64,000 nt of DNA from Halorubrum vacuolatum (GTDB lineage Archaea; Halobacteriota; Halobacteria; Halobacteriales; Haloferacaceae), in the NCBI RefSeq assembly GCF_900188065.1, contig NZ_FZNQ01000008.1, forward strand, positions 62,001 to 126,000, read 5' to 3'. The notes below the pieces were generated by a model. It was not told the origin of the DNA, searched no databases, and was given only the letters and a program-made list of their open reading frames with translations. Each line of letters begins with the position of its first letter. Within the stretch, counting starts at the first letter, position 1. Of the stretch, positions 45,523-50,370 are shown piece by piece. The position numbers were made by a program, and so were the translations under genes.

Positions 45523-46371
45523 TCACTCGCGTATCCGAACGATCCCGTCACGGAAGACGGCGTGATTCGGGAGAATGTGTTCCTCGCCGTCGGTCTCGAT
45601 CCGGGTGACGAACAGGTCGACCTCCTGGACGATCCCGCGCTGGCCGGCGACCCGCACCTCGTCGCCGATCCCGTACGGCTGTCTGAGAAGGAGAAACAGT
45701 CCGGCGGCGGCGGCCGCGAGCAGGTCCTTCGTCGCGAGCGCGAGGAGAACGACGACCGCGAGCGCGTACGCGGCGAGCAGGATGATGAGCGCGAGCGTCT
45801 CCACGCCGACCTGTCCGAGTGCGAGCAACGCCGCCACGTAGACGATGCTGTATTTCACGATGGTCGGCAACAACCCGACCTCGGGGAGTTTCACCCCACG
45901 AAGCCGCTCGGCGACGAGCAGTTCGGCCTTGTCGCCGACGACGATTCCGACGATGATCACGAGCAACGCGATGAACAGTCGGGGAACGAACGTGGCGACG
46001 TTCTCCCAAAATCGGTCGACGAAATCGACCTCGGCGACCGTGAGCGCGACGACGACCGCCACGGCGACGATGAAGTACGCGGAGAGTTTTGCGATAATGG
46101 CGACCGTCGAGGTGTCGAACTCGCGGGCGGTCCGCTCGAACGCCGTCCCCTCTATCGCTTCCGGCACGCCAGCTCGCGTGAGGAGCCGACGGCTGAGTAT
46201 CCCGACGATGACCGCCGATACGAGCCCCAACACCAGTACGAGAAGCGCCACCCAGAGCCGTTCGGGAACCGCACCGAGAACGTCGCTGGCGGCCGAAGAG
46301 GGAACCGAGGCGGCACCGAGGTCATTGCTTACCGCGGGGAGGATGGCGACCCATGACGCACACCCCGTCAT
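45523..46371 (-). CDS. mscS: MscS-family mechanosensitive channel
   Basis: This 282-residue channel protein has transmembrane segments near 38-60, 92-115, 127-150, 170-195 and 199-220, and the MscS beta domain at about 225-275 (YGIGDEVRVAGQRGIVQEVD, HILPNHAVFRDGIV). MscS channels release solutes upon osmotic downshift. It begins 1 bp after the dacZ stop, and c-di-AMP is an osmotic signal, so the two genes probably act together. It is shorter than E. coli MscS at the C-terminus. Confidence 0.87.
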   Translation of the reverse strand: MTGCASWVAILPAVSNDLGAASVPSSAASDVLGAVPERLWVALLVLVLGLVSAVIVGILSRRLLTRAGVPEAIEGTAFERTAREFDTSTVAIIAKLSAYFIVAVAVVVALTVAEVDFVDRFWENVATFVPRLFIALLVIIVGIVVGDKAELLVAERLRGVKLPEVGLLPTIVKYSIVYVAALLALGQVGVETLALIILLAAYALAVVVLLALATKDLLAAAAAGLFLLLRQPYGIGDEVRVAGQRGIVQEVDLFVTRIETDGEEHILPNHAVFRDGIVRIRE

Positions 46372-46372
46372 C

Positions 46373-47182
46373 TCAGTACTCCTCCGGGTCGACCTCGAGA
46401 ATAAGCCTTCCGCCTTTAAAAGCCCGGACGAGCCCGTCGGACTCCGAGAGCACGATCGCGATGGCGTTGGTGTCGCGGGTGATCGCCCCGCCGGCCATGT
46501 GACGGGCCCCGAGCCCCTTCGGGATGTCCACCCCCTCCGCGGCCGGTTCGAGATAGCGGTACGCCGAGACGATCTTTCCCGAGTCCGAGACGATGAACGC
46601 GCCGTCGAGCCGCGAGAACTCCTTTAACATCACGTTGACGATGGGATCGCCGACGTAGACGTGTGATTTCTCGAACGGGTTGTACGAAAGCGAGCGGGAC
46701 TTGTTCATCACCTTGCCCGCGTCGCCGACGACGAACAACGCGCCGACCGGCTTCCCCTTCTGTCCCTTCTGTCCCAACTCGATGGCGACCTCAAAGACGT
46801 CCCGGATGACGCCGGGGTCCGCCCGGGAGTTAACGAAGAGGTCGTAGATCCCGGTATGGATCGTCGAGTCGACGCCCACACGCACCACGGCGTCGGTGGC
46901 GTCACCGAAGATGGAGACGACACAGACGACCTCGTCGCCCTCGTCGACCAAGTCGGCGTCCATCGCGCCCTCGATGCCGAAGCGGATCCGGTCGCGAACG
47001 TTCTCGAACGGGAGCGGCAGCTCCACGAACTCCTCGGCGTCGACGGCGTTCTCGGCAGCGACCACGACAGCCGCCGACCCCATCTCCTCGAACCGGGTAT
47101 AAAAGGAGGTCGACGGCGAGAACAACAGCACCACGTCGGCGTCCTCGACGAGGCTCGCGAGTTGGTCTGTGAGTGATCCCAT
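46373..47182 (-). CDS. dacZ: Diadenylate cyclase DacZ
   Basis: This 269-residue archaeal diadenylate cyclase makes c-di-AMP from two ATP. The DisA_N domain occupies about 125-265 and contains DGA at 193-195 (RLDGAFIVSDSG) and GARHMAGG (RH at 227-228), both needed for catalysis. The N-terminal 120 residues form a pyruvate-kinase-like sensing domain typical of DacZ. The enzyme is essential and dosage-sensitive in Haloferax. It is co-transcribed with mscS. Confidence 0.93.
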   Translation of the reverse strand: MGSLTDQLASLVEDADVVLLFSPSTSFYTRFEEMGSAAVVVAAENAVDAEEFVELPLPFENVRDRIRFGIEGAMDADLVDEGDEVVCVVSIFGDATDAVVRVGVDSTIHTGIYDLFVNSRADPGVIRDVFEVAIELGQKGQKGKPVGALFVVGDAGKVMNKSRSLSYNPFEKSHVYVGDPIVNVMLKEFSRLDGAFIVSDSGKIVSAYRYLEPAAEGVDIPKGLGARHMAGGAITRDTNAIAIVLSESDGLVRAFKGGRLILEVDPEEY

Positions 47183-47278: not shown

Positions 47279-47878
47279 CTACCGGAAGATGCGCCGGAGA
47301 TCGTTGCGGTACACGGCGATCACGACCGCGAGGCTCGCGACCGTCGACACCGGAAGCACGCTGAATATCCCCATCACGTTGCCGGCGCCGAACCGCGAGG
47401 CGACGCCTACGGTTACCCAGAGCGTCGCGAGCGCGCCGAGGACGATCAACCCACCCGTCACCCGCCGGTCCTCCCTCCCGAACAGCCGACCCGTCCCAGC
47501 GCTCGCGACCGCGAGGAGGTGGAAAGCGAGCGCCAGCGGCCACGCCTGAATCGACGCGGGAAGCGTCGCAAACGGTCGCGGCTGATCGCCGAAGTAGTCC
47601 CACACCGGGTAGATGGAGAACCCAACGGTCGGGTCCACCGATCCGGTGTTGATAAATCCCCACAGGCTGACGAGGGTGAGATCCCCGGTTCCCGACGGCA
47701 CCACCGTCATCGGGACCGCCAGCAACGCGAGCACCGCCACGAAGGCCGGGAGCGAACTCACACTCGGGGTCTTGGAGTCATCCTCGCCGCCACCTTCGGT
47801 ACCTTCCGCTCGGACTGCTCCGCCCGGATCCGTCCGGCTGTCGGCGTTCAGATCCGCTCGACGGTCGACGTCCGACAT
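47279..47878 (-). CDS. Membrane protein (TIGR04206-like)
   Basis: This 199-residue protein has an acidic N-terminus of about 40 residues and four or five hydrophobic segments (LPAFVAVLALLAVPMTVV; AWPLALAFHLLAVASAG; VTGGLIVLGALATLWVTVG; VSTVASLAVVIAVY). The segment LTLVSLWGFINTG then YPVWDYFG is what I associate with the rare TIGR04206 family. ATG 47878 is taken, but a GTG at 47941 overlapping the upstream stop (GTGA) would make it translationally coupled to the helix-hairpin-helix gene. Function is unknown. Confidence 0.6.
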   Translation of the reverse strand: MSDVDRRADLNADSRTDPGGAVRAEGTEGGGEDDSKTPSVSSLPAFVAVLALLAVPMTVVPSGTGDLTLVSLWGFINTGSVDPTVGFSIYPVWDYFGDQPRPFATLPASIQAWPLALAFHLLAVASAGTGRLFGREDRRVTGGLIVLGALATLWVTVGVASRFGAGNVMGIFSVLPVSTVASLAVVIAVYRNDLRRIFR

Positions 47879-47937
47879 AAACCCCTCTCGGGTCTCGGCC
47901 GGTTTAGCTCGTTCGACGACGGAACGCCTCCGGACGT

Positions 47938-48708
47938 TCACTCGGTGCTTTGGTTCTGGTCTTCGAAGCGTTCCGTTTGGAGGGATTCACGGACTGCACC
48001 GTGTTCCAACACGCGCTCGGGAACGTCACCGCTGAGCACGCTCGTCCGTTCTGCGCGGTGCATCACGGCATCGAGCATCGAGTCGTCGATCCGATACTGC
48101 TGCGGCAACGACAGTTCACCTTTCTGTTCGGCCTCACGCACCGTCCGCTTAAGCTCCTCACCGGGCGTCGCCGCGAGCGTTCGACGATCGATATTTAATC
48201 TGACAAGGGCCTCCGCGAGCTGGCTGTCGGCGCCGAGTTTGACGTGCCGGGCCATGTCGATGAACCGCTTTGTGCGCGCCTCCGACAGGCCGGTTTCGAC
48301 GGCGACCGCCCGCGGGTCCCGGCGTGCGAGATCCCGGACGTCCTCGACCCCGGCCCGCCGGAGCCGTTCCGCGGTCGCCTCCCCGATCCCTTGGAGATAA
48401 CTGAGCGGCAGCCGGGGTGAGGGATCGAGTTCCCCCACCTTCGAGGGAACGAACGAGAACCGCAACCGGCCGTCCCCCTCGCCCGGGGTCACGCCGAGTT
48501 CGTCGAGATCGCCCGCGTCCGATTCCGACTGTCGGATCGCCTCCGTCCCGGCCTGTGTCTCCGGGCGAACCGGGATCTCCACGTCGACGCTCTCGACCGA
48601 GAGATACACGCGCGTCTCGCCCTCCCGATCGAGCCTCGATCGCTCGACGGTTTCGACGCCACGCTGCAGGCTCGCTTGGACCCGCGACATGAGTTCGGCG
48701 TACTCCAC
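47938..48708 (-). CDS. Uncharacterised helix-hairpin-helix protein
   Basis: This 256-residue protein has an N-terminal part with amphipathic strands (RVYLSVESVDVEIPVRPET). A central helix-hairpin-helix stretch follows (YLQGIGEATAERLRRAGVED, then a second at ALVRLNIDRRTLAATPGEEL) as in DNA-binding or DUF4332-like domains. The C-terminal 50 residues are polar helices. It is the third gene of a tight operon whose first two genes are paralogues of each other. HhH modules bind nucleic acid backbones, so a DNA or RNA role is plausible, but no function is known. Confidence 0.7.
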   Translation of the reverse strand: MEYAELMSRVQASLQRGVETVERSRLDREGETRVYLSVESVDVEIPVRPETQAGTEAIRQSESDAGDLDELGVTPGEGDGRLRFSFVPSKVGELDPSPRLPLSYLQGIGEATAERLRRAGVEDVRDLARRDPRAVAVETGLSEARTKRFIDMARHVKLGADSQLAEALVRLNIDRRTLAATPGEELKRTVREAEQKGELSLPQQYRIDDSMLDAVMHRAERTSVLSGDVPERVLEHGAVRESLQTERFEDQNQSTE

Positions 48709-48711
48709 GGT

Positions 48712-49533
48712 TCATTCCCTCCGATCGAACCGTAGCCGCATGTCAATGCTCCCGATCGCCTCCGGGACGGTCCCGACATCCGCTTCGCGATAGTCCGGCA
48801 CGGCCGTATGGAGCCGCTCGTCGAAGGCGACCTTCATCGAGAGGTCCATCGTCTCCGTGACCGCCCGGGGCAGGCCGTTTTTTACCATCCCCGCGATCGT
48901 CTCCCGTCGTTGCTTCCCGAGCTCGTGTGCGGCCGCCCGTCTGATCCGGTTGACTGCCCGCTCGGTGAGGACTGGGACCCGCATCTCCCGGTCCGCAGCG
49001 AATTCGAGCACGTCCGACGAGGCCCCGGGGAGCTCCGCGACCGGCCCGTCCGCATGATCATCATCGCCCGTATGTATCCGCCGGTCGTCGATGACCGTGT
49101 CCGTGACCGGGAAATCCAACGATCGCTTCGTGGCCCCGTGGAGCAGGGATTCGAGCCCGGCGTCGGCACCTCGAGTGACAGCCGTTCCGGCATACTCCCT
49201 GACCGACGTGCCGATCTGCCCAGCCGTCTCCGAGGATCCATCCCCCACGTCGAGCACATCGCCCGGGTCGATCCCCGCGTCACGAAGCGCTGTCGCCATC
49301 TTCGGGAGGTATACGGCCCCGACCCGGACGCGTGTCCGTGTTGGATCGGCGGGATCCGGATAGGCCGATCGAAGGAACTCATCGACCTCGCGATCGGTGA
49401 CCAGCTCCTCGGGAGGCCGGTCAAGCGTGGTGGTTAGCTCCTTGGCCGACGCCTCCATCTCCGTTTCGGCTGCACGCACGCCGTCGACCGCGTCGTCGAT
49501 CAGCCGCGCGATCAGTGTGGCTGTTTCGGGCAC
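48712..49533 (-). CDS. Uncharacterised protein B of a three-gene operon
   Basis: This 273-residue protein is a paralogue of the gene at 49537. Both have VTDxxVxEFL (here VTDREVDEFL, residues 45-54) and a later block with MVxxG, a TVxET or AVTET core and alternating hydrophobics (MVKNGLPRAVTETMDLSMKVAF). N-terminal helices precede the first block, and the C-terminus looks like beta strands (IGSIDMRLRFDRRE). No catalytic motif is visible. It lies 3 nt after gene A and 3 nt before the HhH gene. Confidence 0.68.
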   Translation of the reverse strand: MPETATLIARLIDDAVDGVRAAETEMEASAKELTTTLDRPPEELVTDREVDEFLRSAYPDPADPTRTRVRVGAVYLPKMATALRDAGIDPGDVLDVGDGSSETAGQIGTSVREYAGTAVTRGADAGLESLLHGATKRSLDFPVTDTVIDDRRIHTGDDDHADGPVAELPGASSDVLEFAADREMRVPVLTERAVNRIRRAAAHELGKQRRETIAGMVKNGLPRAVTETMDLSMKVAFDERLHTAVPDYREADVGTVPEAIGSIDMRLRFDRRE

Positions 49534-49536
49534 CGA

Positions 49537-50310
49537 TCACTCCTCCGGTGTTCTGAGCGGGACGTAGTCCCCTCGGAGGTTGAGTTCGACCTTCCCGCCG
49601 ATCTCGACCTGTGCGGACGTGTAAGCGGTATTGCTCCGGTTCACCGAGGAGGCCGTCATCCGGCTGGCATTCGCCCGTCCCGAGATGCCGAAGACACGAC
49701 CGATCCCGCCGCCGGCCCTCACGCTGGCCCCTGCGGAGGTCCGCCGCTGTCTGCTGCTGGATCTTCGGCTGGTGTCCCGACCGTACGTGGTGAACTCGAG
49801 ACGGGTCTCTATGCGACCGGTCTCGACGACGGTCCGGATGACTCCCGTCTCCACCATCTCCTGAAGGGCGTTGAGTCGGCGTCTCGCCAGTCGTCGACTG
49901 GCCAACCGCTCCACATTCTCAACGCCGTCCTCATCGAGCGTTTCCCCCTCTTCGGGGATCGACAGATCGAGATCCGGATCCGCTGCCGCCGACTCGAACA
50001 GTCGGCCGGCGCGGTCCGCCTCCTCCGCTGTCACTTCGTGTCCCTCGACGAACGAGGTCGTTCCCGGATCCTCGCCCGGGAACCGTTCGGCGAGGAACTC
50101 CCGGACGTCCGCGTCGGTCACCGACTCGGTCTCGAACTCCTGTACCGAGAGGCTCACCCGTTCGAGGAGTTCCGCATACGCCTCTTGTTGTCTAATGTTC
50201 GATGAGACGATCGCGTCGAACACTTCACTGATGAGCTTTGCTGTGAATTCGGCGAACCCGAGGTCCTCGAGCTGTGACGCGTTGTCTACCGCTTGTTCTG
50301 CTGCTGACAT
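49537..50310 (-). CDS. Uncharacterised protein A of a three-gene operon
   Basis: This 257-residue protein starts the operon. Residues 14-60 are amphipathic helices (EDLGFAEFTAKLISEVFDAI, QQEAYAELLERVS). The VTDADVREFL block is at 64-73, and EMVETGVIRTVVETGRIETRLEF lies at 151-173. A basic serine- and arginine-rich region (about 180-230: SRRSSSRQRR) and a C-terminal strand pair (AQVEIGGKVELNLRGDYVPL) follow. The likely role is structural or nucleic-acid-associated; no enzyme motif is seen. Its promoter region at 50311-50370 is AT-rich. Confidence 0.68.
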   Translation of the reverse strand: MSAAEQAVDNASQLEDLGFAEFTAKLISEVFDAIVSSNIRQQEAYAELLERVSLSVQEFETESVTDADVREFLAERFPGEDPGTTSFVEGHEVTAEEADRAGRLFESAAADPDLDLSIPEEGETLDEDGVENVERLASRRLARRRLNALQEMVETGVIRTVVETGRIETRLEFTTYGRDTSRRSSSRQRRTSAGASVRAGGGIGRVFGISGRANASRMTASSVNRSNTAYTSAQVEIGGKVELNLRGDYVPLRTPEE

Positions 50311-50370
50311 TTTATTCCCCGCACGGGATTCTCAGAGCGATAATATAACTGTAACAGAAATAAATATCTC
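50311..50370 (-). promoter_or_regulatory. Promoter of the uncharacterised three-gene operon
   Basis: Read on the minus strand, the stretch before the ATG at 50310 contains TTATATTATC (about 50339-50348) and TATTTATTTC (about 50358-50367). Either could be box A; the first predicts a transcript starting within about 10 nt of the ATG. The AT content is high compared with neighbouring genes. Confidence 0.45.

Follow-up and report, generated by a model that had tools for sequence, protein, structure and literature searches.

The window analysed here, a stretch of 64,000 nucleotides (nt) of Halorubrum vacuolatum, carries on its minus strand three consecutive open reading frames (ORFs), referred to as A, B, and C, that are separated by 3 nt between the stop of A and the start of B and again by 3 nt between the stop of B and the start of C. 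The features of the locus are listed below in the direction of reading.

50311..50370, minus strand: AT-rich stretch (37% GC), putative promoter of A-B-C
49537..50310, minus strand: gene A, 257 amino acids (aa), first paralogous subunit (ORF and family relatives)
49846..50310, minus strand: helical domain of A, residues 1-155 (AlphaFold2, block means of pLDDT 80-98 over residues 21-150)
49561..49842, minus strand: residues 157-250 of A, two beta strands (157-175 and 233-250) around a long insert (AlphaFold2 model and alignment of 45 relatives)
48712..49533, minus strand: gene B, 273 aa, second paralogous subunit (ORF and paralogy to A)
47938..48708, minus strand: gene C, 256 aa, third subunit (ORF and position shared by 26 of 26 related loci)
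48427..48708, minus strand: N-terminal domain of C, a helix (residues 3-26) and probable beta strands (model of low confidence after about residue 30; relatives)
48235..48411, minus strand: helix-hairpin-helix (HhH) domain of C, residues 100-158 (HHH_5 profile and superposition on RadA)

The sequence-only reading had described these genes as an operon in which A has its own AT-rich promoter. The operon is borne out by the strand and spacing of the three ORFs. The AT-rich stretch is likewise real, as the 60 bp upstream of A have 37% GC in a window of 65% GC and rank among the lowest 0.4% of its 60-mers, and its role as a promoter is presumed. The GC3 of A, B, and C is 0.75-0.78, below the 0.83-0.88 of drg, dacZ, and mscS in the same window, which is weakly consistent with a later arrival of the module. 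All three proteins appear soluble, with no evident signal peptide or transmembrane segment.

A and B had been proposed to be paralogous on the basis of two shared blocks, and both blocks are present, the first as SVTDADVREFL in A and LVTDREVDEFL in B and the second as MVETGVIRTVVETGRIE and MVKNGLPRAVTETMDLS, respectively. Pairwise BLASTP gives a weak match between the two proteins (E 8e-4), and comparison of their family profiles aligns 226 columns, nearly the whole length, with a probability of 99.8% and an E-value of 1.2e-28. When the A-family profile is run against its own genome, B is the sole other match (E 4e-4). By these sequence comparisons, A and B are true paralogues; no similarity of either to C was detected. 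One further match to B, in another genome, was discarded, as neither A nor C was seen beside it.

Using the curated cut-offs as threshold for membership, or an E-value below 0.001 for PHROGs, no acceptable match for A or B was found in Pfam, NCBIfam, or PHROGs. The best Pfam match of A, DUF6323, reached 15.8 bits and thus stays below its cut-off of 30.6, B matched nothing in Pfam, and family searches with 45 relatives of A and 20 of B gave no credible family. PADLOC gave no credible match for A, B, or C and hence no known anti-phage defence protein; an oligonucleotide cyclase suggested for A (E 0.02) covers 64 residues only and is not credible. Sequence searches of the PDB returned weak matches, e.g., archaeal Rpo4 (E 0.01), that were rejected as relatives of A or B. 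The earlier impression that the two proteins belong to no characterised family therefore stands across Pfam, NCBIfam, PHROGs, PADLOC, and PDB, and no paper on the A-B-C operon, the function of DUF2589, or TIGR04206 was found in the open-access literature searched. Neither the protein family nor the operon could be placed in a known kind; their mechanism may yet prove to be of one.

The AlphaFold2 model of A, built from an alignment of 45 sequences, has an overall pLDDT of 72, which falls to about 30 in the insert (residues 176-232), for which there is no confident model; in the alignment of relatives, most inserts carry an aromatic tip. Comparison of the model using Foldseek and VIA-align brought no solved or viral fold to prominence, and A may nevertheless adopt a known fold. 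A COMMD-like fold appeared as a weak match (E 1.6) and was dropped.

The third gene had been read as encoding an HhH protein, and C indeed matches HHH_5 with 27.5 bits (cut-off 27). The model of C, confident for the HhH domain only, superimposes on the N-terminal domain of RadA (2z43_B) with a Z-score of 11.4 and an rmsd of 0.9 Å over 59 residues. Residues 100-158 thus share the fold of the RadA/Rad51 N-terminal domain, while C lacks the recombinase core and the hairpin motif varies across the C family. The N-terminal helix and a strand of the VRV/VEV type are also present in relatives of C.

Downstream, C overlaps the gene of a membrane protein (47279-47941) by GTGA, and this protein had been considered possibly coupled to the operon. 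The overlap is there, but membership of the module falls away, as the protein is TIGR04206 (near_ArtA; 100.5 bits, cut-off 90) and is not co-conserved with A-B-C: it occurs in 21 of 24 genomes of the genus, compared with 3 of 52 for A, and was seen next to A-B-C at none of the other loci read. In the window, TIGR04206 adjoins dacZ, whereas within 1.5 kb to each side of 19 other copies in the genus neither dacZ nor drg is found. In the other 23 genomes of the genus that were checked, drg, A-B-C, and TIGR04206 do not lie upstream of dacZ. Accordingly, TIGR04206, dacZ, and drg were rejected as functional partners of A-B-C, given that they are not adjacent elsewhere in the genus, and A-B-C is an accessory unit there, since the dacZ-mscS pair stays constant while the genes upstream of it do not. 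This pair itself, a mechanosensitive channel gene and a diadenylate cyclase gene (window 45523-47182), is adjacent in all 24 genomes of the genus searched, which suggests a functional link between c-di-AMP and the channel.

More widely, searching 84,980 species genomes with the A profile, under restriction to one short peptide pattern that makes the count a lower bound, brought up at least 66 loci, 26 of them in a minimal group and 40 in an expanded form. Every one of the 26 minimal loci, one of them haloarchaeal, has A, B, and C in this order and in the same orientation, and together they span at least seven phyla (Thermodesulfobacteriota, Gammaproteobacteria, Actinomycetota, Nitrospirota, Bacteroidota, Bathyarchaeota, and haloarchaea). 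Among the hosts are Desulfospira, Desulfobulbaceae, Kangiella, Pleionea, Alteromonas, Knoellia, a Nitrospirae MAG, Bacteroidetes, Bathycorpusculum, and Halorubrum. A further haloarchaeal copy, located via B, comes from a different family of the order, and members of the A family also reside on plasmids of Burkholderia and cyanobacteria. Within the genus of the window the distribution is sporadic (A in the 3 of 52 genomes mentioned above). The genes flanking A-B-C are not conserved past close relatives; those around the haloarchaeal operons differ from one operon to the next and are ordinary genes.

Pairwise distances measured for A, for B, and for C correlate with one another (Mantel r 0.70-0.86, p 2e-4), an in-step divergence that would be expected of any co-inherited genes and is alone no proof of contact. 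In the tree, very long branches lead to the haloarchaeal pair, whose placement is unsure. Taken with the constant gene order, the evidence supports A-B-C as a co-inherited multi-subunit module. The multi-subunit assembly proposed by the sequence-only reading, against which membership in a characterised family or a lack of co-occurrence of the three genes in other genomes would have counted, is plausible in view of the paralogous subunits, the HhH gene, and this co-occurrence. An origin from a virus or provirus was dismissed, as no relative of A was found among 50,697 phage records or 2.9 million viral contigs. Two observations on single loci may be added: in one genome, gene A (L012 7240-8081) changes frame next to masked sequence, being either a pseudogene or a sequencing error, and in Desulfospira (L016 10684-13526) genes resembling a nucleotidyltransferase and a metallophosphatase, as judged by eye, lie downstream of A-B-C.

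The expanded form comprises about 11 genes, among them four A-like paralogues, a C-like protein, an S8 peptidase, and a peptidoglycan hydrolase of 1200-1800 residues, and the loci typically also carry a small helix-plus-strand protein and three further proteins that have no assignment. The 40 loci come from Lysobacter, Luteimonas, Burkholderia, Chitiniphilus, Aliikangiella, Sphingomonas, Erythrobacter, Cellulomonas, and others. The C-like protein contains an HhH-like segment and matches C moderately (P 3.5e-4). The S8 peptidase of one locus (L041) belongs to PF00082 (E 2e-34), and a gene of a single S8-family cluster was found in 34 of the 40 loci, a count limited by the 8-kb flank. Reading upstream on a Burkholderia plasmid revealed the fourth A-like gene and a protein of 1254 aa (L163 5772-9536) annotated as N-acetylmuramoyl-L-alanine amidase, with a weak match to AmpD (E 0.003) and NlpC/P60-like and papain-like parts recognised by eye. 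In 17 of 18 genomes, homologues of this hydrolase (about 1200-1800 aa) are encoded no more than about 12 kb away from A-like genes, in the same orientation and on the same contig; the homologue of the 18th genome lies on a short contig next to another A-like gene. On a Burkholderia plasmid (L010 9435-14032), a cyclase-AAA-TPR protein and a patatin are encoded directly downstream of the expanded operon.

Lytic enzymes also accompany some of the minimal operons. In three Bacteroidota loci that are close relatives, C is directly followed by a phage-type (T5-type) L-Ala-D-Glu endopeptidase, which in L033 matches PDB 8q2g (E 1e-16) and ChiX (E 2e-7); these phage-type endolysins are neighbours of A, B, and C, not homologues. 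A Thiotrichales locus (L022) has an Amidase_3 near A-B-C, in a Desulfobulbaceae MAG (L019 4086-12218) the operon is surrounded by caspase, PG_binding/GH19/papain, and papain genes lying to either side, and a patatin is found near A-B-C in one Gammaproteobacterial locus. Lytic enzymes are missing next to many minimal operons, as in Kangiella, Knoellia, and Desulfospira, and next to the haloarchaeal ones read, so that the coupling is not universal. Association with lytic enzymes is strong for the expanded operons and occasional for the minimal ones. This hydrolase neighbourhood in bacteria had not been anticipated from the window.

Paralogy, conservation of the operon, correlated divergence, and the bacterial hydrolase neighbourhood are observations, whereas a physical complex, carriage or control of enzymes, and any role in conflict or lysis are inferred. 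In the reading preferred here, to which we give a probability of about 35%, A-B-C would assemble into a hetero-oligomer in the cytosol, carrying or regulating lytic enzymes, and would be reduced to its core in haloarchaea. A and B, each with a helical N-terminal domain and C-terminal beta strands holding a long insert, would probably pack together, and C would be the smaller partner, its HhH domain serving as a scaffold. The bacterial module or its expanded relative would be coupled to peptidoglycan hydrolases and an S8 subtilase, and in places to papain-like, caspase, or patatin enzymes, a coupling which suggests that it may carry, hold, or license them, perhaps when a cell responds to conflict or lyses itself. 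In haloarchaea, the copy would then be the core with no adjacent enzyme. Haloarchaea have no peptidoglycan, which counts against the lytic-enzyme reading, as do the close relatedness of the three Bacteroidota loci and the only moderate match of the C-like protein to C. On a bolder and slightly less probable reading, A-B-C would be a new cross-domain machine of A/B paralogues and an HhH partner, with a bacterial form loaded with or controlling peptidoglycan hydrolases and a subtilase and a haloarchaeal form that is a peptidoglycan-independent core. A three-gene unit found in at least seven phyla of bacteria and archaea has a larger relative that repeatedly includes an S8 peptidase together with a giant peptidoglycan hydrolase, and the protein-family, defence, and structure libraries used recognise neither A nor B. 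Should the module indeed carry or control lytic enzymes, bacteria would have in it a novel kind of machinery for lysis or conflict, and its archaeal version, working without peptidoglycan, would be a puzzle.

Alternatively, A and B may polymerise into a shell, ring, or filament that C caps or tethers, with the hydrolases as cargo or as enzymes of particle release. Such a structural assembly would fit the multiple paralogous subunits, four of them A-like in the expanded form, a long beta insert of A that could be an arm, and lytic enzymes similar to those used in particle release. However, comparison of the A model with solved structures brought out no shell, tail, filament, or injection-system fold (best Z 3.9, Foldseek E above 0.1), although A may still have one, and no relative of A was found in the phage and viral collections. 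We consider this explanation unlikely.

Equally improbable is that A-B-C serves as an adaptor in, or regulates, a conflict system armed with a peptidase, comparable to the Trypco-type adaptors of ternary conflict systems (PMC7159879). Trypco2 has been placed in peptidase-armed conflict systems (PMC7159879, PMC10907252). The sporadic distribution of A and the S8, caspase, papain, and patatin genes near bacterial modules would agree with this. The N-terminal domain of C, as well as the small protein of the expanded operon, seemingly shares the helix-then-strands layout of Trypco2 (PF19631), an adaptor of trypsin-linked conflict systems; for C, this presumed likeness draws on the general layout of the family and on one sub-threshold match, that of the N-terminal domain of the L041 C-like protein (E 0.063). 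This match scores 14.0 bits against a cut-off of 24.2, however, and C itself is not matched by the Trypco2 profile. Trypco2 systems also differ in that no trypsin or MoxR/vWA partner was seen near the module. In addition, PADLOC found nothing credible for the three proteins, no NTPase sensor gene was recognised beside the minimal operons, and the haloarchaeal neighbours are ordinary genes.

The nucleic-acid-binding-like role once suggested for C, in which C would recruit a nucleic-acid-associated complex, is quite unlikely. While the RadA-like fold and the GIG hairpin of the window C speak for it, of the C proteins read, only about half retain a Gly-x-Gly hairpin, the Bathyarchaeal C proteins (L039 6200-6649 and L042 2485-2943; about 150 aa) have no HhH domain, and C proteins are mostly acidic, for which reasons the domain may instead be a protein-binding scaffold. 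Least likely is a pore or membrane attack by an amphipathic, Gly/Ser/Ala-rich insert of A, activated in the expanded form by the S8 peptidase, for although 45 relatives show by eye an alternating pattern and a conserved aromatic tip, the insert has no confident model and minimal operons have no protease.

Finally, A and B resemble DUF2589 (PF11655) in being small, with a helix near the N-terminus, C-terminal strands, and an insert tipped by Trp. In archaea, including two other genomes of the genus, DUF2589 occurs as adjacent paralogous pairs similar to the layout of A and B. No member of A or B matches PF11655, nor does anything in their own genome, and whole-profile comparisons were not significant. 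A global comparison with the DUF2589 beta region scored 18.5, above all 60 of 60 shuffles (mean 3.3), though a reversed control came near the real local score and weakens this positive result. Membership of DUF2589 was therefore rejected by profile, and a relationship to A and B is suggestive only. In one genome (L110 3773-5920), two DUF2589 genes and a third gene form an operon resembling A-B-C, and the third protein is very acidic and of low complexity.
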